This document shows, piece by piece, positions 33,266-55,053 of a stretch of 63,143 nucleotides of DNA. Every line of letters begins with the position of its first letter. Position 1 is the stretch's first letter. Position numbers and translations under genes: made by a program. Origin of the DNA: a virus; the IMG/VR virus record IMGVR_UViG_3300028800_000100, positions 1-63,143 of that record; one strand, written 5' to 3'. Below the pieces are notes generated by a model. That model saw nothing but the letters and a program-made list of their open reading frames with translations. It was not told where the DNA came from and did not search any database.

Positions 33266-34283
33266 GATGGATGCGGCGTTTGTCCGCAATGTGATAGCGC
33301 AACACAGCTTGGATCCTTCTCCAAAACACGGGTTTCATGCCAGCCCGTTGTATTGGCAGCAGTCCATCGAATGGCGCAGATGCATTGAGGAGTACGATTG
33401 GGGAAGTGTTGTGTTTTTGTCGGATTTGAAGCGTGGCCAGCACTTCACAGTCGTGATCTTGGGGCAATTCGACGCAACGACTGGCAAGCTAAAGCAAAGC
33501 ACGTCATCCGTGGGGCATCTATCCAAGATCGTTCCTTGGTACCTGGATTTGGTTGCCGGGTTGTCTGAGGCGCAACAGCCTAGCAACGTTGATATTCCGC
33601 CTTGCCTCGGGTTCAACGAGCCTGATCATGTTTGCATCGGCGGGGTGAATCCGACTACGAAATTGACGGAGCCTGCTTGCGCTTGGCTTTCACGCTGCTC
33701 GGCTTTGCGAATGGTCGCAGAGGCAACCAATCGCAACCAACAAGACATGTTGAAGAGCAAGTCACCCGAGCAAATCGTTCAACTCACAGAGCGCTTATTG
33801 GCGCAAAAGACGGCCAAGCAAACGCCAAAGACGAAGGCCAAAGCAGTGCCGGTGACACTGAAAGTCGAGCACACATCAGGCCGCTTCCCGGATGCCGTGA
33901 AACAAGTCGCAACAATCATGGTCGAGGTGGCCAAGCTCTGCGACGTTGGGGTTGCGCATGATGCAAACTCAGCATCGCCCGGTGAGTTGTACATGATTGA
34001 TCGCACCACCAAGTCCGATTACGTGACTGTGTATCAATCCATCGCCGCGGGCGCCAAGCGTCGCCCGCTTGCATCCTGGCGCATCAGGACTCGGGATCCG
34101 GGATTTCGTGTGCAATTGCCGATGCTGAAGGAAGATCCTTTGCTGCAAAGCATTGTCAAGGCAGACATCGTCGTTTGGAACGACGGGGCATTCAAGTGTT
34201 GCGTCAACGATGTCATTCCGGGGCAACTTCGCATGGACAACATTCGCGCCATCATGTGTCATTTGGCAAAGGCGCCACGATGA
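33243..34283 (+). CDS. Hypothetical protein upstream of the nucleotide cluster
   Basis: A 346-residue protein overlapping the previous gene by 23 bases and the next by 4 (ATGA). It has an N-terminal alpha/beta domain (SVVFLSDLKRGQHFTVVILG), a Lys/Thr-rich linker near residues 190-205 and a C-terminal domain with VKQVATIMVEVAKLCDVGVA and DNIRAIMCHLAK. No motif I can name. The overlap with the FAD enzyme gene suggests it belongs to the same operon. Confidence 0.6.
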   Translation: MVYSNPNEMDAAFVRNVIAQHSLDPSPKHGFHASPLYWQQSIEWRRCIEEYDWGSVVFLSDLKRGQHFTVVILGQFDATTGKLKQSTSSVGHLSKIVPWYLDLVAGLSEAQQPSNVDIPPCLGFNEPDHVCIGGVNPTTKLTEPACAWLSRCSALRMVAEATNRNQQDMLKSKSPEQIVQLTERLLAQKTAKQTPKTKAKAVPVTLKVEHTSGRFPDAVKQVATIMVEVAKLCDVGVAHDANSASPGELYMIDRTTKSDYVTVYQSIAAGAKRRPLASWRIRTRDPGFRVQLPMLKEDPLLQSIVKADIVVWNDGAFKCCVNDVIPGQLRMDNIRAIMCHLAKAPR

Positions 34284-35281
34284 GAGTTGTAATTTTGGGT
34301 GGCGGGATCTCGGGCTTGATTGCGGCCCATGTCTTGAAAAACAAGGGCGGAGTCGATGTCACGCTGATTGAGGCCGGCGACAAATTGGGCGGAACGTTCG
34401 CGGCTGGTGGTCTGAAGTACCTGCGGGCGACCAAGGACGCGTCAGACATGTTGGACGCTTTGGGGATCCATTACAGTTTCCATCTGCCGCGTGGGGCCAT
34501 TTACATTGACGGAGTTGCAAAGAGCCATCCGGAGTGTCTCATGGGGATGAGCACCTTGGATCGGTTGCAGATTCAGACGGCACACTGGAAGAAAACGAGG
34601 AAATCACTGGAAGGGTTTCGTGCCGACTGCATGAATGATCCTGGGTCGAAGCACAATTGGTCGGCTCGGTGTGATAATGCGGTCGTGGTTGCTGCTCTGG
34701 CAAAACAAGCCGAGGAGTCTTGCAAGGTTCACACCTTCGCTCGGGTGCGACGGGTTGATGCCAAAAGCGTCACGGTCCATGATCGAAATGTGCCTTATGA
34801 TTTCTTGATCAACACGCTGCCGCTGCCCGTTCTCAGGAAGATTGTGCCTTTCACCGTCCAATCGGGCATCCCGGACACGTCTTGCAACAAGCTCAGCATT
34901 GTGGACGTTAGCGGCATCCAAACCGACATGTGGTGGGATTACCTGTACACGCCGCTGGCTTCGACCGTGTCACGGATCACCAAGACGAGTCCGACCACGG
35001 CCCAACTTGAGATCCCTTGGGGCAAGCCCGATGCGCCCAAGCCACTCGACACCGATGATTTGATGCCGCTGCTTTCGCATCGTTCCGATCGCGACATGTT
35101 TGTACAGGAGACATTGTCAGAGCCAAGGGTGTTGAATGGGCACCTCAAACCGTTGCCCGGCCCATTGGTGTTGCCGAAGAACTGGCTCATGCTTGGACGC
35201 TTCGCCGAATGGGATCCGCGCTCCACTGCCGAAAAGTCATTGACAAAGATGATTCAGTGGGCACATGATCAACGCTTCTGA
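34280..35281 (+). CDS. FAD-dependent amine oxidase/mutase-like enzyme
   Basis: A 333-residue flavoprotein. The N-terminus MRVVILGGGISGLIAAHVLK is a clear FAD-binding Rossmann motif (GGGISG at 7-12), followed by VDVTLIEAGDKLGGTFAAGG, which positions the ribose of FAD. The C-terminus NWLMLGRFAEWDPRSTAEKS is the second FAD contact seen in UDP-galactopyranose mutase and amine-oxidase relatives. It begins as ATGA overlap at 34280. It lies first in a run of nucleotide-related genes, so a role in tailoring a modified base or sugar is inferred; the substrate is unknown. Confidence 0.72.
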   Translation: MRVVILGGGISGLIAAHVLKNKGGVDVTLIEAGDKLGGTFAAGGLKYLRATKDASDMLDALGIHYSFHLPRGAIYIDGVAKSHPECLMGMSTLDRLQIQTAHWKKTRKSLEGFRADCMNDPGSKHNWSARCDNAVVVAALAKQAEESCKVHTFARVRRVDAKSVTVHDRNVPYDFLINTLPLPVLRKIVPFTVQSGIPDTSCNKLSIVDVSGIQTDMWWDYLYTPLASTVSRITKTSPTTAQLEIPWGKPDAPKPLDTDDLMPLLSHRSDRDMFVQETLSEPRVLNGHLKPLPGPLVLPKNWLMLGRFAEWDPRSTAEKSLTKMIQWAHDQRF

Positions 35282-35390
35282 CAAGTTCTATGATGAGCAC
35301 CGTCGAGCGCTAAGTGACGCGTTGAAAGGCAATAGAAATGGAGTCGTAAGACGTGGGAGACTTGGAAAAAATATGGCGGCGGCAAATTGA
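35265..35390 (+). CDS. Possible 41-residue overlapping ORF
   Basis: A short basic frame (MINASDKFYDEHRRALSDAL at the N-terminus) starting inside the end of the FAD gene and overlapping the next gene by 38 bases. It fills the 71-base gap but has no recognised motif and only weak start signals, so it may be chance. Confidence 0.25.
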   Translation: MINASDKFYDEHRRALSDALKGNRNGVVRRGRLGKNMAAAN

Positions 35391-36282
35391 GCAGCAATCT
35401 CTCTGGCATTCATGGGAAGGATTGTCAGACGATGATAAGAGCGCGCTGACCAAGGAACTGATCCTTGGGATGTATGAGGAGCTTGGCGAGCTTCAAAAGC
35501 GCTTGGACATCGACAAGTATCACATCATCATGAAGGCTGTCAAGCGTCACCCTGCCGCCGTTGCGGAAGACGGCATTGACGTGATGAAATACCTCGTTGC
35601 GCTGATGGCATTGCACGGGGTGACACCCGAGATGATGTTGGTTGAGTTCAATCGCAAGACCATGGTGGTTGACGCCAAATGGAAGGCGCAATGTGACAGC
35701 TTGCGCGATGTTGACGTGTTGCTCTGCGACTTGGACGATTGCGTGGCTGATTGGGCGCATGGCTTTCCGGCTTGGACTGCTGCTCGCGGCATCGACATCA
35801 ACGGCGCGCCCGAAGGCTCCTTGGAACAAGAAAAGGCCAAAGAGCGCTTCTATGCTGAGGGTGGATTCCTGACGCTTGGGACCATTTCTGGTGCCGTCAA
35901 CACGCTTTCGAGATGGCGCGGCCGAACTCATGAATATTGCGCCCATGCTGTTAGGGATCGGCGCCTCATCATGGTGACGTCAAGACCGTACCGCCGGCAC
36001 ACCCGCGTGTACGCAGACACCATGGAATGGTGTGACAAGGTAGGATTGGGTCAAGATCATATCATTTTCACCAACGACAAGGCCGATGCCGTCCGTCAGA
36101 TGCAACCTGCTCGAATCATCGCGATGATCGAGGATCGGCACAAATATGCATCCGAATTGGCAGCCATCGGTGTGAAGGTGTTGAAACTGCCGGGGTGGGA
36201 TGACATAGAGAACTTCAAACATGCCAACGTACTTGGGTGTCGCAATTGGGACGACATCAAAGCAGCGTTGGCAAATATATGA
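35353..36282 (+). CDS. MazG-like pyrophosphatase fused to 5'(3')-deoxyribonucleotidase (HAD)
   Basis: A 309-residue two-domain enzyme. Residues about 30-110 form an all-alpha NTP-pyrophosphatase (MazG/dUTPase-2-like) with EELGE (Glu42, Glu43, Glu46) and EDGIDV (Glu72, Asp73, Asp76) as the metal-binding pairs. Residues about 120-309 form a HAD phosphatase of the NT5C type: nucleophile motif LLCDLDDCVADW (Asp126, Asp128, Asp133), LIMVTSRP and IAMIEDRHKYA. Together they could convert a dNTP to dNMP and then to nucleoside. The start is GTG 35353 with GGAG upstream. It lies beside ThyX, fitting removal of an unwanted canonical dNTP. Confidence 0.7.
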   Translation: MGDLEKIWRRQIEQQSLWHSWEGLSDDDKSALTKELILGMYEELGELQKRLDIDKYHIIMKAVKRHPAAVAEDGIDVMKYLVALMALHGVTPEMMLVEFNRKTMVVDAKWKAQCDSLRDVDVLLCDLDDCVADWAHGFPAWTAARGIDINGAPEGSLEQEKAKERFYAEGGFLTLGTISGAVNTLSRWRGRTHEYCAHAVRDRRLIMVTSRPYRRHTRVYADTMEWCDKVGLGQDHIIFTNDKADAVRQMQPARIIAMIEDRHKYASELAAIGVKVLKLPGWDDIENFKHANVLGCRNWDDIKAALANI

Positions 36283-36300
36283 ACTGAAAGGTCCAATGCC

Positions 36301-37287
36301 ATGAAACCGAAAGTCACGCTTGTTTCGTCTACGCCCGATCCGTTGGCAACCGTCTGGCTGCTCTGGGAAGCCAGCAAAGTTGACGGCCCGGTGCCGTTGT
36401 CCATCAAGGAAGTCCGCGACACCGTGCCGCATTCCAAGCTGGAAGAGCTGTTTTGGCAAGTCATCCGGCAGCAAATCCCCGTGGGAGAAGACATTGAGTT
36501 CACCTTCATGCTGGAGGGCGTCAGTGTCTCGTTCCGGGAGCAAATGGTACGACATCGAATTGGCGCCCGCGCTGGCGACAACTATGGCGTGGATACCATT
36601 CCGGACATTGCCACGTCAACCTGGTGGTCGCAATCGATGCGCATCCAGGACATGAGCACGTTTGCGGATCGCGGGATGTATCGCGTGCCCGAGACGCTGA
36701 AGGGGAAAACATGCAAGCGTCCGGATGGTGATTCATTCCTTGCTGTGAATCGATTCGTGTCAACCATGCACCTTATCCAAGATGCCTACAAGGATTTGGT
36801 GGCAGCCGGGGTGCCCATGGAAGATGCGCGTGACCTCATCCCGCTCGGCGCCCAACACCGCATCAGCTGGAAGTTGACGCTTCAAGCCTTGCTCCACATC
36901 TTGGGGAAGCGCGGTTGCTACATCCTTCAGATGGGGCTTTGGGGCCCGATCATTACCGGCATCGTGAACGAGCTTGCCGAAAAGGTGCACCCGATGTTTC
37001 GCAAAATCGTTCACCCGCCTTGCGTGGGGAATGATGGAAAATTCAGCAGTTGCCTTTACCGACTGGAGAATTCCAGGCGCGTGGACGGATCCGACGCACA
37101 CAGCCCTTGCCCCTTGTATCTGTGCTCCGATGAAGAAGGTTCGAAGCATGTGCCTGGTGCGACTCCTGATGATCGGCTTGTTGCGCTTCGCAAGACTCGC
37201 AACATCATCCCTCGTCAGGATGAGATGTTGGAAAGAGCTGAAGAGTATCGTGCGTTGTGGGGCTGTGATCCGTATCTGTGGAAGTGA
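36301..37287 (+). CDS. Divergent flavin-dependent thymidylate synthase (ThyX-like)
   Basis: A 328-residue ThyX homologue. The fold signature EFTFMLEGVSVSFREQMVRH R (RHR at 84-86) and the second half LIPLGAQHRISWKLTLQALL followed by HILGKRGCYILQ match the family. However, the ThyX motif RHRxxSxNxxSxRY reads RHRIGARAGDNYG here, so the conserved Ser residues are missing. The C-terminus adds about 80 residues with several Cys (SSCLYRLENSRR, PCPLYLCSDEEG). ThyX makes dTMP from dUMP; the changed motif leaves open a different one-carbon transfer such as hydroxymethylation. Confidence 0.72.
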   Translation: MKPKVTLVSSTPDPLATVWLLWEASKVDGPVPLSIKEVRDTVPHSKLEELFWQVIRQQIPVGEDIEFTFMLEGVSVSFREQMVRHRIGARAGDNYGVDTIPDIATSTWWSQSMRIQDMSTFADRGMYRVPETLKGKTCKRPDGDSFLAVNRFVSTMHLIQDAYKDLVAAGVPMEDARDLIPLGAQHRISWKLTLQALLHILGKRGCYILQMGLWGPIITGIVNELAEKVHPMFRKIVHPPCVGNDGKFSSCLYRLENSRRVDGSDAHSPCPLYLCSDEEGSKHVPGATPDDRLVALRKTRNIIPRQDEMLERAEEYRALWGCDPYLWK

Positions 37288-37490
37288 TGCTTCGGACGTA
37301 CGATTCATCAGAGATGGCTAGACGTGGCAGGCTGACCGCTGCTGGCGGGAGTCTGTCCCATCCACCATCCGAACGAGAACACAGAGAGACGACAGGCGGA
37401 TGCAAAACATGATCAGCGCGCCATCACTGCTGGCTGGGGTGTTGTTCGCATTTGGGAACATGATTTGAAGGAAGCGCAAAGAGGGTAACA
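37288..37490 (+). other. 203-base gap with two tiny overlapping ORFs
   Basis: No known element is visible. Two short frames are present: 37314-37412 (32 residues, starting MARRGRLTAAGG) and 37409-37468 (19 residues, MISAPSLLAGVLFAFGNMI, hydrophobic), joined by an ATGA overlap like true genes here. Coding is uncertain. The aminotransferase ribosome binding site AGAGGG lies at the right end. Confidence 0.4.
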
Positions 37491-38687
37491 ATGACGGCCA
37501 ACCATCTAATGGATACAGTTGAGTTCAGAAATTTCAACATCGTTGGGGCTGATGGGCCGTACTTGGTACGCGCAGACGGCCGTAAGCTGCTCGACTTGTT
37601 CACGGATACAGGCACAGCATCTTTGGGAACGTCTTGGGCAAGCATCAACGAAGCCATGTCATGTCTGGCCGATTTCCATTTTGGTGCCCATGCTCCAAAC
37701 TTGTACACCAACCCATTGCGCAATTATGTCAGCGAGCGGGTCTGCAAGCTCATGGGCGCGAGTCGTGTGTTTTGGTGCAATAGCGGAACCGAGGCCGTGG
37801 AAGCTGCCATCAAGATGGCGCGCTTGTACCATTACAAGCAGGCAAAGTTGTCAAACCCGCCAAGGAACAACATTTTGTCCGTGTCGGGCGGCTTTCACGG
37901 CCGGACGTACGGTGCCATTGCTGCGGGTGATGGGCCATCTTATCACTATGAAGGCATGGGCCCCTATCCAGGCGGCTTCATCCACGCGCCCATCGAGCGC
38001 ATGTGTGACATGATCATCAGCCTTGGACCATCGTTGGCCGCGGTGATCATGGCACCTGTGATGGGTAACAATGATGTCGTGCCGTACGAAACCGAAGTGT
38101 TGCAGAGCATCCAAGCCATGGCCCACAGCGTTGGCAGCTTGCTCATCTTCGATGAGGTTCAGACGGGCTCGGGACGCACTGGCGCACCGACTTACGCACA
38201 ACGCGTTGGGCTTGAGCCCGACATCACCTGTCTGGCCAAGGGCATCGGCATGGGCTTCCCTGTGGGGCTGGCCTTGGCGCGTGGCAACGCGGGCAACGCG
38301 TTCACGCCCGGCACCCATTTCAGCACATTCGGAGGCAACCCAATGTCCAATGCGTTCGTGAACGTGATGTGCTCTTGGTTGGAGAATCAAAGCAACTTGG
38401 ACAGCGTGATCTCGGTCGGATCCTTCACCAAGTTTGCATTGGAAACTCGCGACTCATTCCCAGACATGGGGCAAGTGCGAGCAGTCGGCATGATGATTGC
38501 TTGTGATGTGCCTGTTGACCGTCGCATGTTGGAGCGCGAGGCATTGGCCGAGGGCCTGCTGCTCCCAACGTTCAGAGATGGGCCGGGCACCATCAAAATC
38601 ACGCCGCCGTTGAATATCGGCATGCCAACCATGGCCATGGCCATGGAATCATTGTCGCGCGCCTACAAACGTTGCTTGGAGTTTTAG
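37491..38687 (+). CDS. Class III (PLP-dependent) aminotransferase
   Basis: A 398-residue fold-type I, class III aminotransferase of the acetylornithine/GABA type, unusual in a phage. Residues needed for PLP are all visible: NSGTEAVEAA (97-106), GGFHGRT (133-139), LLIFDEVQTGSGRTG (Asp221) and the Schiff-base Lys250 in CLAKGIGMGFP. Length equals cellular enzymes, so it is likely active. It could transfer an amino group to a small precursor or to a modified nucleotide. It stands between ThyX and a nucleotide kinase and starts at ATG 37491 behind AGAGGG. Confidence 0.8.
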   Translation: MTANHLMDTVEFRNFNIVGADGPYLVRADGRKLLDLFTDTGTASLGTSWASINEAMSCLADFHFGAHAPNLYTNPLRNYVSERVCKLMGASRVFWCNSGTEAVEAAIKMARLYHYKQAKLSNPPRNNILSVSGGFHGRTYGAIAAGDGPSYHYEGMGPYPGGFIHAPIERMCDMIISLGPSLAAVIMAPVMGNNDVVPYETEVLQSIQAMAHSVGSLLIFDEVQTGSGRTGAPTYAQRVGLEPDITCLAKGIGMGFPVGLALARGNAGNAFTPGTHFSTFGGNPMSNAFVNVMCSWLENQSNLDSVISVGSFTKFALETRDSFPDMGQVRAVGMMIACDVPVDRRMLEREALAEGLLLPTFRDGPGTIKITPPLNIGMPTMAMAMESLSRAYKRCLEF

Positions 38688-38691
38688 CCCA

Positions 38692-39294
38692 ATGGCAGTG
38701 GTGATTTTCGAAGGCGCATCAGGCGTTGGCAAGGGAACAGTCGCCAAGAGTTTGGCGAATTTCATCCATGCGCCCGTGTACCGCCCATTCAGGCGCGCAC
38801 CCGACAGCCACCAGCCCGGCGACGCATACCCCGAGTTGAAAGACATCCCCATGCGGGTCAATACCTGGCGCGAGGATCTTGTTGTTGCCGATTTGCTGGG
38901 GGCAACTCATTGCACCGACGTCATCCTTGACAGGTCGCTGATCTCAGGGTTGGCTTACGATGATGATATGTGGGACGGGATGCCGCCAAGCTCCTACGGC
39001 AACGAGCCATGGTTGAGCACGACAAGGCTGAGCAAGAATGGCTTGGCTGCTCTGCGACTTTGGGTGAAGCTGTTGTCCGGGAACCATACCATTTTGGTGT
39101 TGATGCGACAACCATACGAGGTGCGCAGGGCACGCGGTGGACGCGTCGGTGATTGGGAGGCTAAAGCCATTGATCATGTCGTTTGCCACATCCCCACGGG
39201 CAACATCCGGGTGATTATTGCGAATGGGCAAAGCCCTGAAGAGATAATCGAACGGGTGATGATTCATGGCGAAACACGTGCAGCCAGTTTCTGA
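38692..39294 (+). CDS. P-loop deoxynucleotide kinase-like protein
   Basis: A 200-residue P-loop kinase. Walker A is GASGVGKGT (8-16); the DVILDRSLISGLAYDDDMW segment resembles the DRS/lid-proximal region of thymidylate and deoxynucleoside kinases, and VLMRQPYEVRRARGG supplies Arg residues for the lid. It could phosphorylate a dNMP made by the neighbouring ThyX-like enzyme. A 5-hydroxymethyluracil DNA kinase, also P-loop, is the alternative. It overlaps the next gene by 29 bases. Confidence 0.68.
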   Translation: MAVVIFEGASGVGKGTVAKSLANFIHAPVYRPFRRAPDSHQPGDAYPELKDIPMRVNTWREDLVVADLLGATHCTDVILDRSLISGLAYDDDMWDGMPPSSYGNEPWLSTTRLSKNGLAALRLWVKLLSGNHTILVLMRQPYEVRRARGGRVGDWEAKAIDHVVCHIPTGNIRVIIANGQSPEEIIERVMIHGETRAASF

Positions 39295-39727
39295 TTCGGA
39301 TGACAGCGGCATCTCGACGTTCGGCGGTGTCGGGCTTGATTTCGAATTCGGCCACAATGAAAAAACCAAGCCAAAGCGTGATCACAAGCTCCATTGGAGA
39401 AGGCGGAAACATCGTGTTTACTTGCAGGCTTGTGAGCGCCGCGATCGATTGCGTGCTGAGCTTGGGAATGAATGTGGCGAGTGCGGTGCCAGGATTGGTG
39501 ACATGGACAGCAAGGGCGCACCTGTGCTGCTCTGTTTCGATCATGGCGATAACGTTCGTGATTGGGAGCCGCGCAAGATGAACATGATGCACCGCATGCG
39601 CATGTACGAACGTGACCACAAGCGTGGTCTGATCAAGTTGAGCTGCAACGAATGCAACGGCTTTGATGGGGCTTGGCACGGTAAGGCGCGAGCCCGGCGC
39701 CATCGAAGGGCAATGTCAAGACGATGA
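39266..39727 (+). CDS. HNH/endonuclease VII-like protein
   Basis: A 153-residue basic protein with a zinc-bound betabetaalpha-metal nuclease pattern: CGECGARIG, LCFDHGDNVRDW (the D-H pair), then LIKLSCNECNG. Spacing matches phage HNH and T4 endonuclease VII-type proteins. It could be a structure-specific resolvase, a free-standing homing endonuclease or a packaging nicking enzyme. The stop overlaps the polymerase start (ATGA), which speaks for an operon member rather than a recent intron-type invader. Confidence 0.62.
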   Translation: MAKHVQPVSDSDDSGISTFGGVGLDFEFGHNEKTKPKRDHKLHWRRRKHRVYLQACERRDRLRAELGNECGECGARIGDMDSKGAPVLLCFDHGDNVRDWEPRKMNMMHRMRMYERDHKRGLIKLSCNECNGFDGAWHGKARARRHRRAMSRR

Positions 39728-42700
39728 GCGATGTCAAATCTGATGACTTTTGTCATTTCCATACGCATAGCGAATATTCCACGCTAGACGGCTGTGGAAA
39801 GATGCATGATTTCATGACGGCTGCCAAAGCCATGGGGCAACCAGCCATTGCTTTCACGGAGCACGGGACTGTTCGACAGCTCACAAGGTTGCACAAGGAA
39901 ATCGAAGAAAACCCGGATGATGTTGTGCGACCCATCTACGGGGTTGAGCTGTATTTGTGTAAGGATATGGCGCGCCGCGGCATGACGCCGGAAGAGAAGG
40001 CCCGTGTCACAGACAACCTTCCCAAGTCGCTTCACAAGGAGGCCATCAAGAAATTCGAGCATGACGAGGGCATCACCGGCCGTTATCACTTGACCGTCTT
40101 GGCCAAAGATTCTGTGGGTTTGAAGAACCTGATGCGCGTCACAACGCTGGGATGGGTCAAGGGGTTTTATCGGCGGCCACGCGTGGATCTCGATTGCTTG
40201 CTCGCAAATCACGAGGGATTGGTGGTGTTGTCGGGTTGCCAGATCGGCTCAATTGGCAGTGATTACCTTGATGGCAAGCCTGGCGGTGCCATCGACAAGG
40301 TTACGCGTTTGCGTGAAACATTTGGCGATGATTTTTATGGCGAGGTGATGCCTCACAACATGCCAGACCAAGTCAGAGTCAACAAGGCGACGATTGCGTT
40401 GTCCAAGCGCTTCGGCATGTCACTGATCGCAACTCAGGATGCACACTACATCGCAGAGGATGATTGGAAATACCAAGAGGCAATGCTGTGCCTCCACAGC
40501 CACACGACCTTGAGCGATCCGAACCGTTGGACGTTCACCACGCACGACTTTTGGCTCAAGCCAAGAGCAGCAATGGCCGAAAGCTTCCGGCAGTTCCACC
40601 CCTATATGACCGACGCGCAGGTCCAAGGCGCGCTCGACACCACCATGGAGTTGGAATCCAAGCTCCAAGCCAAGTTGGAAGTCGATAGGTTCAAGGCGCT
40701 GGTTCCCAAGGTGTCCATCCCGCCTGAATTCTCGGATGATGAGAACAAGTACATTCGCTCGCTTTGCCTTCGTGGGTGGAAAGAGCGCGACATTGACAGG
40801 TTGATTGTGGCTGAGGCTGCTCGCCGCAGGATCTCCATTGGTGATTGTCGCAAGATCTACATGGACCGGCTGCGTTATGAGCTTGAACGCATGGAGGCGC
40901 AGAAGGTAACGCGTTACATGTTGGTGGTGTGGGACGTTTACAAATGGGCCCGCGCGGCCAAAATCGAGTGCGGCCCAGCTCGTGGGTCCGCTGGTGGTAG
41001 TTTGGTCTCATTCTTGCTCGGCATCACGGACTTGGATCCAATCATGTTTGGCTTGTTGTTTGAACGTTTTCTCAGCCCTGACCGCATTGATCTTCCTGAC
41101 GTTGACATGGATTTCGAGGATGCCCGCCGGGATGAGGTGATCACGTTTCTGCACAAGCGCTATGGTGAAGACAACGCATCGCAGATAGGCACCAACAACA
41201 AGTTGACGGGCAAGGGGTGTTTGCGTGATATTGCTCGAATCATGGACATCCCACTGCGTGAGATCCAACCTGTGGTGGATGCCGTTGTTGAGCGAAGCAG
41301 CGGTGATGAACGCGCCAGCATGACCATCGAGGACTCGTTCAAGGAATTCCCAGTGTGCCAGCGTTTCAACGAGCGTTATCCAGAGGTTTTGGAGTACGCC
41401 AAGAAGTTGGAGGGCCAGGTCAAAGCACTCGGGGTTCACGCCGCGGGCGTTGTGGTGAGCCCAGTGCCGCTCATCGATGTCGTGCCGCTGGAGATTCGCA
41501 GCCAGAAAGGGGATGGCACTCCCAAAGTGGTGACTGCGGTCGACATGTATGGCGTGTCCGACCTTGGCCTGGTGAAGATGGACATACTAGGCATTCGCAA
41601 CCTGTCAGCGATGCGTTTTTGCCGTGAGGCTGTGGCAGAGAGACATGGGGTTGAAATTGATTGGCTTAAACTGCCACTCGATGACAAGCCAACTTTGGCC
41701 AACTTCACCAACCACCACTACATCGGCATCTTCCAATTCGACACGGTGTCAGCAGACAAGATTTGTGATGGTGTTGAGTTCACCAGTTTTGATGACGTGT
41801 CTGCCATGGTCGCCTTGGATCGCCCTGGGACTGCTCGCTCAGGTCTTGCCACAGAATACCTGAAGCGCAAGAAGGATCCCAAGAAGATTGTGTCAATCCA
41901 CCCGCTCGTGGATGAAATATGCAAGGACACGTTGGGGGTCATCGTCTACCAAGAGCACGTGATGAAGATTTTCACGGACGTCGCAGGTTTCAGCCCGGCA
42001 ACGTCTGATAGCTTGCGCCGCAAGATTGCCAAAAAGTACGGTGATGACGCAATAGCCAAGGAGCGCGAGAACTTCGTCAAGGGTGCCATCGAACATGGGC
42101 TGACGCCCGAGTTGGCATCCAAGCTGATCGAACAAATCAAGTTCTTCGGCTCATACGGATTCAACAAGGCCCACAGCGTCGCATACGGCTTGATTGCCTA
42201 TCGCGAGATGTACTTGAAGACCCATTATCCAATGGAGTTCATGTGGGCTCTGTTGAAAGTCGAGCCCGATACCGACAAGGTCATCCGGATGGTGCGCGCC
42301 TGCAAGCGTATGGGCATCGATGTTCTCATGCCTGACATCAATTCCAAGGATCCATGCAACTGGACCATCGAAGGCGGGGCCATCGTCGGAGCAGTATCCA
42401 ACATCAAGGGCGTTGGCGAGGCCGCAGTGCGAGCCATCGCAGCAGCCGGCCCATACAAGGACTTCGTTGATTTTGCAGAGCGCGTCGATCGCCGCCGTTG
42501 CCATAAGGGCGTGGTCAACGCCCTCATCCAGGGTGGCGCATTCGATCGCATGGTCCCCAACACCAAATGGCTCTATGAGAACCTGGAAAAGTTGTGGGTC
42601 CATGTCGGCAAAGCCAACAAAGGTTGGCAAGACAAGTTGCGTGCCATCATTCGAGCATCTGCGGCTGCTCCGAAGTGGCCTGCTGACGTAGCGGAAGACA

Positions 42701-43497
42701 TTGCCAAGCGCATCAACCCGATGGCATGCGGCGAGGATCCGCTGGCCCCGTATGTGCCCATGATCGAAGGCATGCGCACCGTTTGGATGAAGATGGACGA
42801 TGAGGCGATTTGGGACAACCCGGACGCTTGGATGTGGGGCAGGATCATCGAGGTGCGTCAAAATCAGGTTGGCGATTTCCATTCTGGTGAGGAACCAAGC
42901 GATGAAGACAAAGCCAAGATGGGGTGGGGCAAGCGTTATGCCAACATAAATGTTGAAGACATGTCCGGGCGTAACCAGCGTGTGAAGATTGATGTGAGTG
43001 ATTATGAAATCTACAGGCCGTTGCTGGAGCGCGGCGCTGGCACCGTTGTTGCTGGACACGTCGTGATCAACAAGCAGTACCACTCCATGCGTGCCAGCTT
43101 TCTTGTGGACCTTGACGAGTTGAAGGCCAAGATTGGTGCCGAGGATCAAGGCGCAACCAGCCCAGGTTTTGATCCGCTTGAGTTATGCTTGTGGGACGGA
43201 TGGCGTCCGGGCGGGAAGCATGTGTTGCCCATTTGCGAAGACAGGATATGGAAGATGTCAGCGCTTGTGGTTCGGGTGATGCAAAAAACTGACAAGAAGG
43301 GCAATGAAATGGGGTTTTTGGGGTTGATCGGATCAGACGGGCTGCACCGCGAATGTTTGTGTTTTGCCAGCAGCTGGGAGTCCTTTCAACAAATACTACA
43401 TCGTGGTGTCATTGCCAAGTTCAAGTTGACCAAGGAAAAACGCACATATTTCCTGGACAACAAGATCGAAGCGGCTGTGACCGTGATCGAACCGTAG
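39724..43497 (+). CDS. dnaE: DNA polymerase III alpha subunit (C-family), with PHP domain
   Basis: A 1257-residue replicative polymerase. The N-terminal PHP domain (about 8-260) keeps His residues in FCHFHTHSEYS, TEHGT and TQDAHY, so proofreading or pyrophosphatase activity is possible. The catalytic palm has GSAGGSLVSFLLG (421-433), LPDVDMDFED (Asp461 and Asp463 the likely metal ligands) and VKMDILGIRNL (Asp620). The FGSYGFNKAHSVAYGLIAYR stretch is typical of the fingers region. The C-terminal OB-fold portion is shorter than in E. coli. The gene overlaps an HNH gene and ends the nucleotide cluster, so the phage brings its own polymerase, perhaps able to use a modified dNTP. Confidence 0.92.
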   Translation: MSDVKSDDFCHFHTHSEYSTLDGCGKMHDFMTAAKAMGQPAIAFTEHGTVRQLTRLHKEIEENPDDVVRPIYGVELYLCKDMARRGMTPEEKARVTDNLPKSLHKEAIKKFEHDEGITGRYHLTVLAKDSVGLKNLMRVTTLGWVKGFYRRPRVDLDCLLANHEGLVVLSGCQIGSIGSDYLDGKPGGAIDKVTRLRETFGDDFYGEVMPHNMPDQVRVNKATIALSKRFGMSLIATQDAHYIAEDDWKYQEAMLCLHSHTTLSDPNRWTFTTHDFWLKPRAAMAESFRQFHPYMTDAQVQGALDTTMELESKLQAKLEVDRFKALVPKVSIPPEFSDDENKYIRSLCLRGWKERDIDRLIVAEAARRRISIGDCRKIYMDRLRYELERMEAQKVTRYMLVVWDVYKWARAAKIECGPARGSAGGSLVSFLLGITDLDPIMFGLLFERFLSPDRIDLPDVDMDFEDARRDEVITFLHKRYGEDNASQIGTNNKLTGKGCLRDIARIMDIPLREIQPVVDAVVERSSGDERASMTIEDSFKEFPVCQRFNERYPEVLEYAKKLEGQVKALGVHAAGVVVSPVPLIDVVPLEIRSQKGDGTPKVVTAVDMYGVSDLGLVKMDILGIRNLSAMRFCREAVAERHGVEIDWLKLPLDDKPTLANFTNHHYIGIFQFDTVSADKICDGVEFTSFDDVSAMVALDRPGTARSGLATEYLKRKKDPKKIVSIHPLVDEICKDTLGVIVYQEHVMKIFTDVAGFSPATSDSLRRKIAKKYGDDAIAKERENFVKGAIEHGLTPELASKLIEQIKFFGSYGFNKAHSVAYGLIAYREMYLKTHYPMEFMWALLKVEPDTDKVIRMVRACKRMGIDVLMPDINSKDPCNWTIEGGAIVGAVSNIKGVGEAAVRAIAAAGPYKDFVDFAERVDRRRCHKGVVNALIQGGAFDRMVPNTKWLYENLEKLWVHVGKANKGWQDKLRAIIRASAAAPKWPADVAEDIAKRINPMACGEDPLAPYVPMIEGMRTVWMKMDDEAIWDNPDAWMWGRIIEVRQNQVGDFHSGEEPSDEDKAKMGWGKRYANINVEDMSGRNQRVKIDVSDYEIYRPLLERGAGTVVAGHVVINKQYHSMRASFLVDLDELKAKIGAEDQGATSPGFDPLELCLWDGWRPGGKHVLPICEDRIWKMSALVVRVMQKTDKKGNEMGFLGLIGSDGLHRECLCFASSWESFQQILHRGVIAKFKLTKEKRTYFLDNKIEAAVTVIEP

Positions 43498-54219: not shown

Positions 54220-54454
54220 AAATCCTGTAATCATCAGGATCAAATCGACATTTTGCCCACATATTTGCTTGGATTGCTACTGGGAACATCGTTACAAGAG
54301 TCTGCTGGTGCAACACAAGTTGTTGCGCATGAAGTTCTTTCCCAAGTCAAACAACCATAAGGTGGTGCGCCAGCTCATGCGTGCTGAACGTCAAGATGCG
54401 GGCGATGAGTACGATGGGTTGCCGCCTGATGTTTTTGACGTCATGGATCGGTGA
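54212..54454 (+). CDS. Hypothetical small protein with Cys pair
   Basis: An 80-residue protein with STFCPHICLDCYWEHR near the N-terminus, perhaps a metal site, and a charged C-terminus. It overlaps both neighbours by a few bases, as genes here do. Confidence 0.5.
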   Translation: MLENPVIIRIKSTFCPHICLDCYWEHRYKSLLVQHKLLRMKFFPKSNNHKVVRQLMRAERQDAGDEYDGLPPDVFDVMDR

Positions 54455-55053
54455 TGATTGAACGTATCGAATCACTTTGGGCTGATTGCCAACGTTGCCC
54501 GCTCCACGCACTTCGCCAACGTGTTGTGATCGGCACCGGGCCCGTGCCTTGTGACCTGATGCTCATCGGCGAAGCACCTGGTGCTGAAGAAGACGAGCGC
54601 GGGATCCCGTTCATCGGGAAGGCTGGCCGCCTCATGCGCGAGCTTGGCACTGAGGCAGGCTTGGACATGTCCATGGACGCCTACATCACGAACGTCTGCG
54701 GCTGCCGCCCGCCGCAGAACCGGCAGCCGCATGACAGCGAGATGGTTGCATGCTCGCCGCGGCTCGATGCGCTGCTACAAGCCGTACAACCCAAAGCGGT
54801 GTTGCTGCTCGGCTCGACAGCCTTTCGGGCTTTGACGGGCGGCAATGCTCCCATCACTCGAATGCGCGGGACCGAGATGGAAACTGGTTGGACGTGGAAG
54901 GGTAAAAGATCAATCATTCCAGCCATTCCCACCTATCATCCGGCATACCTTTTACGCGTCGCTGACCCAAAGCGCAAAGAAGAGTTCATCAAGGACATGA
55001 AACTAGCATCTGAACTCGCGCATGGATCAAGAGCAAACACCCACTCCGACTGA
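54454..55053 (+). CDS. Uracil-DNA glycosylase, family 4 type
   Basis: A 199-residue glycosylase of the FeS-containing family 4. Motif 1 is IGEAPGAEEDERGIPFIGKA, the FeS ligands include CQRC at the N-terminus and the CGC of TNVCGCRPPQNR, followed by VLLLGSTAFRAL and the IPTYHPAYLLR motif with the conserved His. It removes uracil from DNA. In a phage with possible unusual pyrimidine metabolism it may clear misincorporated dU or related bases. The start shares a base with the previous stop (TGATG). Confidence 0.82.
   Translation: MIERIESLWADCQRCPLHALRQRVVIGTGPVPCDLMLIGEAPGAEEDERGIPFIGKAGRLMRELGTEAGLDMSMDAYITNVCGCRPPQNRQPHDSEMVACSPRLDALLQAVQPKAVLLLGSTAFRALTGGNAPITRMRGTEMETGWTWKGKRSIIPAIPTYHPAYLLRVADPKRKEEFIKDMKLASELAHGSRANTHSD

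Follow-up and report, generated by a model that had tools for sequence, protein, structure and literature searches.

A conserved five-gene cassette of uncultured phages and a possible nucleotide-level route to an amine-bearing uracil

What do five enzymes encoded in a row ahead of a replicative DNA polymerase do for a phage? The question is raised by the IMG/VR virus record IMGVR_UViG_3300028800_000100, whose 63,143 nucleotides are referred to here as the window. An earlier reading of the letters alone (the sequence-only reading) had recognized there an oxidoreductase dependent on flavin adenine dinucleotide (FAD), a fusion of MazG with a deoxyribonucleotidase, a divergent ThyX, a class III aminotransferase dependent on pyridoxal phosphate (PLP), and a P-loop kinase, and had suggested that they jointly make a modified pyrimidine nucleotide for phage DNA. 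All five genes are present where that reading placed them, on the plus strand, and their families were borne out, so that the observation is confirmed; the interpretation is partly supported. A stretch of 62,591 bases of the window is identical to part of a 102.5-kb contig, G001, which adds 40 kb beyond the window and carries the gene for the terminase large subunit, making the window a fragment of a tailed-phage genome. The genes at issue are the following.

34280-35281, plus strand: FAD-dependent oxidoreductase (Pfam Amino_oxidase, 6e-10)
35353-36282, plus strand: MazG-HAD fusion, a MazG pyrophosphatase joined to a HAD 5'(3')-deoxyribonucleotidase (profile matches in the PDB and kept motifs)
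36301-37287, plus strand: divergent ThyX-like enzyme (Thy1, 1e-17)
37491-38687, plus strand: class III PLP aminotransferase (Pfam, 5e-67)
38692-39294, plus strand: thymidylate-kinase-like P-loop kinase (Thymidylate_kin, 0.004; stronger by family profile)
39266-39727, plus strand: open reading frame (ORF) named HNH in the sequence-only reading (no family match)
39724-43497, plus strand: DNA polymerase III (Pol III) alpha subunit (PHROG, 1e-288)

The five-gene cassette and its distribution

The first five genes are separated by 71, 18, 203, and 4 bases, an operon-like spacing. A search for co-occurrence of the five families, which the sequence-only reading had proposed as a check, revealed complete cassettes in 21 distinct phages, with all five genes on the same strand within 4.3 to 5.9 kb and with pairwise identities of the ThyX-like proteins of 31 to 84% (210 pairs). 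Because 21 distinct phages keep the five genes together, the arrangement is beyond chance, and the row is a real module, retained across wide divergence and rearrangement. The FAD gene heads the cassette in the relatives as it does in the window. The most common order, FAD-MazG/HAD-ThyX-aminotransferase-kinase, is found in 15 of the 21; the aminotransferase gene stands ahead of the ThyX-like gene in four, the ThyX-like gene comes last in one, and a fourth order, with two aminotransferase genes and ThyX last, is seen in a single locus, L096. The two aminotransferase genes inside this last cassette (L096:9922-12747) differ from each other.

A single ThyX-like query retrieved 11 loci, and a profile built from six proteins retrieved 36, of which 22 have cassette partners and 14 have none of the four in the available DNA, some of these 14 having short flanks. 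Merging copies of the same phage left 15 complete cassettes from this search. The FAD query returned 28 loci, 18 of them on contigs already known; the 10 new ones comprised six complete cassettes, two cut ones (L088 and L075), and two spurious matches (L095 and L097). All incomplete cassettes from these two queries (L024, L088 with four genes, and L075 with two) end at a contig edge. Of the 37 loci obtained with the aminotransferase query, 24 contain the complete set of five genes and 11 contain no cassette gene but the aminotransferase; the remaining two, L120 and L123, are variants that are discussed below. Near-identical contigs were merged into the 21 phages by eye, on identical match values. 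The gene-calling profiles were made iteratively from the same loci, which entails a risk of circularity for weak calls; those on which the 21 cassettes rest satisfied a threshold E value of 1e-15.

No match was obtained against isolate phages, either by megablast or by tblastn with the FAD protein and the kinase. A scan of bacterial genomes for related genes gave 80 pattern matches and no relatives, and plasmids gave a single weak ThyX match. Aminotransferase matches occurred in 64 of 50,697 phage records. Five of these were inspected: two prove to be entered as Salmonella contigs, and in the other three the match has bacterial genes as neighbors. Among the matches listed by an incomplete full-text literature search, no title or abstract opening describes the module.

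In a ThyX tree of 39 rows, 16 cassette-type proteins (from 15 of the 21 cassettes and from L024) are split by a branch with 100/99 support from 13 proteins of a second type, group B, and five paralogues. In a fuller tree, which omits phage LIS04 and the paralogues and has 23 cassette-type rows (the 16 earlier ones, the other six cassettes, and L088), a single change is enough to separate the cassette type (A) from group B, and this is so in 98% of the 200 bootstrap replicates. The aminotransferase tree (35 rows) places 22 cassette copies across a 100/100 branch from bacterial enzymes and from those linked to 7-deazaguanine genes in phages; the latter were not adopted as close kin. This coupling of clades in the two trees makes the cassette look old and kept as a unit.

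The Pol III alpha subunit adjoins or follows the cassette in 20 of the 21 phages and is the probable user of a modified deoxyribonucleoside triphosphate (dNTP). On the contigs of L009 (16.8 kb) and L010 (25.1 kb), it was found neither beside the cassette nor elsewhere, so the polymerase, grouped with the cluster by the sequence-only reading, is a frequent neighbor not strictly tied to it, and it was rejected as an obligate partner. The putative HNH gene, also counted with the cluster in that reading, fared worse: it has no match in Pfam, PHROG, or NCBIfam and is confined, among the ThyX-profile loci, to the window phage's own contigs, and for these reasons it was considered incidental and rejected as a part of the module. 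The Pol III alpha gene of L006 (12863-17734) contains a stop-free in-frame insertion of ~900 bases, possibly an intein; long Pol III frames are likewise present in L016, L017, L020, L022, and L028.

The ThyX-like enzyme and its partners

A structure model of the ThyX-like protein built from 28 sequences, with a predicted local distance difference test score (pLDDT) of 86.8, superseded a poor model from six sequences (pLDDT, 60.7). It has the ThyX fold, with 198 residues aligned to the Thermotoga maritima enzyme (PDB entry 5ior; Z score, 13.7; root mean square deviation, 2.8). The sole run of at least three residues with pLDDT below 50 comprises residues 87 to 105, an insert after RHRIG; as this insert lies between RHR and the Ser motif, the canonical motif RHRxxSxNxxSxR does not occur in its uninterrupted form. 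The equivalents of the residues contacting flavin and deoxyuridine monophosphate (dUMP), E58, R78-H79-R80, S88, R90, R147, and R174, are kept in all 21 proteins. Equally invariant are a Trp at position 85, the Asn position of the motif, and four Cys, at residues 206, 241, 251, and 270 of the window protein, which are possibly a metal site; the C-terminal tail has invariant Cys. A similar Cys-containing tail is found in the ThyX of PB1- and WFH-type phages.

Two other positions have changed. Position 91 is Ile or Leu in all 21 proteins and never Tyr (Ile in the window). Position 53, whose column was placed by spacing from E58 (T. maritima residues 53 to 57 are not displayed), the other columns being placed by alignment, is Arg in 10 proteins, Gly in four, Gln in two (including the window protein), Asn in two, and Lys, Asp, and His in one each. 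The cassette enzyme is therefore like the canonical ThyX of T. maritima and Mycobacterium tuberculosis and like PolB, a UMP/dUMP methylase, in its fold (Z scores of 11.2 to 13.7) and its flavin and dUMP residues, but differs from them in the insert, the Trp, the Cys tail, and the loss of Y91 throughout and of H53 in 20 of 21 proteins. Excerpts of the ThyX literature describe Y91 and S88 as strictly conserved and critical (PMC8316439) and flavin oxidation as ~1000-fold slower upon Y91 mutation (PMC11940539); according to both sources, His53 stacks against folate or flavin and has bonds with Tyr91 as well as Asn85.

The clearest sign that the cassette enzyme does not make deoxythymidine monophosphate (dTMP) is the presence in record G017 of both a cassette and, 20 kb apart, a canonical ThyX (RHRLASYAQESTRY), with a deoxycytidine monophosphate (dCMP) deaminase gene ~1 kb from the latter. 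Thy1 was sought in 16 distinct cassette phages, most of whose records are probably incomplete, and this is the only one of them that has a canonical ThyX alongside the cassette. A dCMP deaminase is encoded in 7 of the 16 records, the window phage not being among them.

The FAD protein is a flavoprotein of the amine-oxidase/NAD_binding_8 type, matched mostly across the nucleotide-binding end, and is proposed to oxidize an alcohol or an amine to an aldehyde. The MazG-HAD fusion has no Pfam match as a single sequence; its family profile finds a 5'(3')-deoxyribonucleotidase (1e-7) and the MazG-type protein 2q73 (6e-5) in the PDB, and each main motif residue of the two parts is shared by between 13 and 15 of the 15 sequences. 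The proposed role is the degradation of a competing dNTP to the nucleoside. The aminotransferase profile finds acetylornithine-type class III enzymes (best PDB match, 2eh6; 8e-104). The PLP lysine, an aspartate, and the FHGRT arginine, in what we take to be their functional roles, are invariant in 15 of 15 sequences, and the position of the second carboxylate arginine is Lys in seven, Arg in seven, and Ile in one; the predicted reaction is an aldehyde-to-amine step on a nucleotide or the production of an aldehyde donor. The PDB matches of the kinase profile are thymidylate kinases and YorR, a prophage protein, and the P-loop and the DR-x3-S-x3-Y motif are kept in all 16 sequences, consistent with phosphorylation of a modified dUMP.

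A proposed nucleotide-level pathway and its alternatives

Taken together, these features make it somewhat probable, at roughly 0.55, that the module produces, ahead of replication, a deoxyuridine nucleotide that is modified at C5 and carries an amine, and an amine-bearing pyrimidine made at the nucleotide level in general is given the same weight. The more specific assignment of the product as 5-aminomethyl-deoxyuridine is tentative. Gene content, linkage, folds and families, the kept catalytic motifs, and the lost folate and acid residues are observed; the individual reactions, the sequence in which they would run, the identity of the product, and its occurrence in DNA are inferred.

In the proposed scheme, the ThyX-like flavoenzyme would deliver a one-carbon unit, carried on flavin N5, to the C5 atom of dUMP but release 5-hydroxymethyl-dUMP, water capturing the intermediate in normal turnover so that the transfer to C5 is not finished as plain dTMP. 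Published excerpts offer a precedent for each half of this step: ThyX takes the carbon from folate or formaldehyde and moves it via flavin N5 to dUMP C5 (PMC8316439), and an acid quench of its turnover yields the water-trapped intermediate, hydroxymethyl-dUMP (PMC4913046). The FAD enzyme would next oxidize 5-hydroxymethyl-dUMP to 5-formyl-dUMP, and the aminotransferase would convert this to 5-aminomethyl-dUMP. Pairs of an FAD oxidase and a PLP transaminase carry out the sequence CH2OH to CHO to CH2NH2 in nucleoside antibiotic pathways. The thymidylate-kinase-like enzyme and a host kinase would then produce the triphosphate, the MazG-deoxyribonucleotidase fusion would degrade the competing deoxythymidine and deoxyuridine triphosphates (dTTP and dUTP) to the nucleoside, and the phage Pol III alpha subunit would incorporate the modified nucleotide. 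An excerpt of PMC11550810 lists 5-aminomethyluracil, with or without methylation, among the bases that phages naturally contain, so the novelty would lie in the route and not in the product.

A methyltransferase-like protein, recognized by eye, is encoded in 5 of the 21 cassettes (L005:9180-9983, L006:9186-9998, L008:6430-7200, L022:11136-11888, and L038:6665-7456) and, in these relatives, could N-methylate 5-aminomethyl-dUMP; neither Pfam nor PHROG gives a match to the L006 copy.

Phages M6, ViI, and phiW-14 hypermodify thymidine after replication with a synthase homologue, a kinase, and FAD, PLP, and radical SAM tailoring enzymes. Their amino-bearing thymine derivatives resemble the product proposed here, whereas two of their enzymes were not found. 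The helical domain of the 5-hydroxymethyldeoxyuridine (5-hmdU) DNA kinase (HMUDK, PF18723) is absent from all of 12 possibly incomplete records, which represent the window phage twice, nine other cassette phages (10 cassette phages in all), and one group B phage; the same holds for another 12 records of group B and for the phages LIS04 and SP-15, with phage M6 as the positive control (1e-57). A dUMP hydroxymethylase of the ThyA type (PF00303) is missing from the same 12 records, again with positive controls. These two results argue against the known post-replicative route. Among 14 M6 proteins compared with the loci by phmmer (duplicates left out), matches were seen only for gp44, gp62 (polymerase), and gp65 (deaminase), and there were none for the gp48-gp59 proteins tried, the alpha-glutamyl/putrescinyl thymine pyrophosphorylase families not having been searched with their own models. 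The nucleotide-level interpretation given in the sequence-only reading gains from the conserved synthase, the tailoring pair, the thymidylate-kinase-like kinase, the dNTP remover, and the lack of a detected 5-hmdU DNA kinase, while the chemistry, the compound formed, and its entry into DNA have the status of proposals.

A parallel in logic exists with the Z-genome phages, which, according to excerpts of PMC12884076, change a base at the nucleotide level with the help of enzymes that remove the competing nucleotide. The cassette is like their set (PurZ, DatZ, MazZ, DmtZ, and DpoZ) in the nucleotide-level change and competitor removal that its genes suggest; it differs in that the base would be a pyrimidine and not a purine, in the fusion of MazG to a HAD deoxyribonucleotidase, and in the use of another synthase. 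With a synthase, a kinase, and a remover of the competing dNTP co-located, as judged by family and linkage, the cassette may represent another version of nucleotide-level pyrimidine modification in phages.

Several observations weigh against the proposed pathway or its generality. The cassette is known only from genes of uncultured phages, and its single clade, perhaps of one origin, means that the 21 phages should not be counted as so many separate events. The branch between A and B in the fuller ThyX tree is weakly supported (48/98); with LIS04 included, it has 72/99 support, and one change suffices in 84% of the trees. In the 39-row tree, LIS04 lies on a very long branch inside the cassette clade, and no cassette is seen in the 12.8 kb of it that were read. 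The losses of H53 and Y91 extend to the ThyX of phages PB1, PVA7, and LIS04, one PDB entry, a ThyX of Corynebacterium, shows Phe at position 91, and position 85 is Ser or Ala in other ThyX; these losses alone are therefore no proof of altered chemistry and, with the Cys tail, mark a broader phage branch. For flavoproteins of the amine-oxidase type, oxidation of an alcohol is less usual than action at a C-N or C-C bond, and the kept FHGRT arginine of the aminotransferase would also suit an amino-acid substrate. Amine-bearing dNTPs are described as moderate to poor polymerase substrates in the excerpt of PMC11550810. Finally, two variant loci depart from the scheme. L120 (5677-13507) encodes the MazG-HAD fusion, aminotransferase, kinase, Pol III, and, by eye, an FAD-like ORF, and has a canonical-type ThyX placed after Pol III instead of the divergent ThyX-like enzyme; L123 (4648-9017) has no ThyX on its 18-kb contig. 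The aminotransferases of both fall on the cassette side of the 100/100 branch. L123 also encodes an uncharacterized 280-residue protein and, between the MazG-HAD and aminotransferase genes, a short-chain dehydrogenase, which fits an alcohol-to-aldehyde step.

An unlikely alternative, though the most probable of four, is alkylation with a longer chain, in which the aminotransferase would make an aldehyde from an amino acid or a diamine and the ThyX-like enzyme would couple it to C5 of dUMP and reduce it. Acetylornithine aminotransferase, the best PDB match of the cassette enzyme, works on an amino-acid aldehyde. The result would be a larger side chain; a process of this sort, whatever its details, must operate in Bacillus phage SP-15, whose DNA contains 5-dihydroxypentyluracil. 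Loss of the folate-stacking H53 in 20 of 21 proteins is in keeping with this, as is the direct acceptance of free formaldehyde by ThyX as a flavin carbinolamine (excerpt of PMC8316439); SP-15 itself has two Thy1 proteins, and the title cited in PMC5977210 reports that its hypermodified uracil is made at the nucleoside-triphosphate level. On the other hand, longer-chain alkylation leaves the FAD enzyme without a clear role, and SP-15 gp130 shows only distant similarity to the ThyX-like family (E value of 0.0014 with the six-protein set; fold match, 6e-6), for which reason it was not adopted as a member. The ThyX of LIS04 has the best E value (7e-20, 27.7% identity) among the best 40 of 274 isolate records. 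SP-15 and LIS04 resemble the cassette phages in having a divergent Thy1 protein and differ in that no FAD-MazG/HAD-aminotransferase-kinase set is annotated in the stretches read; like the group B loci, they have a nucleoside deoxyribosyltransferase gene nearby and annotated HD-type genes. In SP-15, the former lies three genes ahead of gp130, and an annotated HD 5'-nucleotidase lies 27 kb away.

It is improbable that the product is a small nucleoside directed against the host or its defenses and not a DNA base: the L009 cassette without an adjoining polymerase would suit such a role, but the thymidylate-kinase-like kinase, the dNTP remover, and the replicative polymerase that adjoins the cassette in 20 of the 21 phages speak against it. 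Action on dCMP, yielding a C5-modified cytosine, is slightly less probable again. Base specificity is not readable from sequence, and the ThyX-like enzyme is divergent around its active site; yet the equivalent of the dUMP-activating R174 is invariant in all 21 proteins, the kinase resembles thymidylate kinases, dCMP deaminase genes occur in the seven records mentioned above, and the title of the PolB study supports action of the Thy1 family on uridine monophosphate (UMP) or dUMP. To our knowledge, the known Thy1-family enzymes act on one or the other. Ordinary thymidylate supply with unrelated helper genes, which the Thy1 membership, the lack of a second Thy1 match on the 102.5-kb contig of the window phage, and the sharing of several of the same losses by PB1 and PVA7 ThyX would allow, is the least probable of all and was rejected as the main reading in view of the linkage to the aminotransferase and FAD genes in 21 phages, the loss of Y91 in all proteins and of H53 in all but one, and the canonical ThyX in the G017 genome.

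If synthesis of an amine-bearing nucleotide before replication is accepted, a broader picture is conceivable, although it is held with less confidence: a clade of uncultured phages may swap thymine for an amine-bearing uracil, such as 5-aminomethyluracil, before replication by means of a repurposed ThyX, an FAD oxidase, a transaminase, and a dTTP-destroying MazG-nucleotidase, with group B, through its radical SAM and DatZ-like proteins, making further bases likewise. Amine-type hypermodification of thymine is known from phages that act on the base already in DNA; making the amine-bearing nucleotide first would be a second solution, with a new catalytic outcome for ThyX. The enzymes could be used by chemists to make amino-deoxyuridine nucleotides for DNA labeling, and the ThyX-like signature could serve as a sequence marker for unseen DNA bases in viral metagenomes.

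Group B and other related loci

The loci of the second type, without cassette partners, are L023, L025, L026, L029 to L037, L039, and L040. Their existence bears on the sequence-only reading, which had named as a finding against itself a ThyX homologue that makes plain dTMP and is kept by relatives lacking the other genes: the second half of this applies, as these 14 loci keep the ThyX-like gene without the other four in the available DNA, but many of them carry other tailoring and pool-cleaning genes. Clustering, with one member of each family named by Pfam, revealed in the 13 group B loci DNA polymerase A (11 loci), a YfbR-like nucleotidase (8), a radical SAM/SPASM protein (8), a nucleoside deoxyribosyltransferase (7), and a DUF6378 protein (5). 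The YfbR-like protein is nearest to the dATP triphosphohydrolase PHROG, and a second Thy1 paralogue is present in 5 of the 14 loci. In excerpts of PMC12884076, the YfbR-like DatZ and the deoxyribosyltransferase-like DmtZ are pool enzymes of the Z-genome phages. The ThyX-like family occurs in two settings, which differ in their tailoring genes and in the type of polymerase and which both include enzymes likely to remove dNTPs or deoxyribonucleoside monophosphates.

A gene of the uracil-DNA-glycosylase superfamily is located at positions 54451-55053 of the window and was found in 8 of 12 related records, the window phage being counted twice. Its product may police unmodified uracil.

Genes for LuxE-like and LuxC-like proteins and a class III aminotransferase are clustered in L126 (the same as L127 to L129), L132, and L125, the first named by Pfam, the second by eye, and the third being only partial. 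Clusters of the L126 type also contain genes for QueD-like and QueE-like proteins, GTP cyclohydrolase I, and dCTP deaminase; QueC is absent from all three records. They look like a route from 7-carboxy-7-deazaguanine through an aldehyde to an aminomethyl base.

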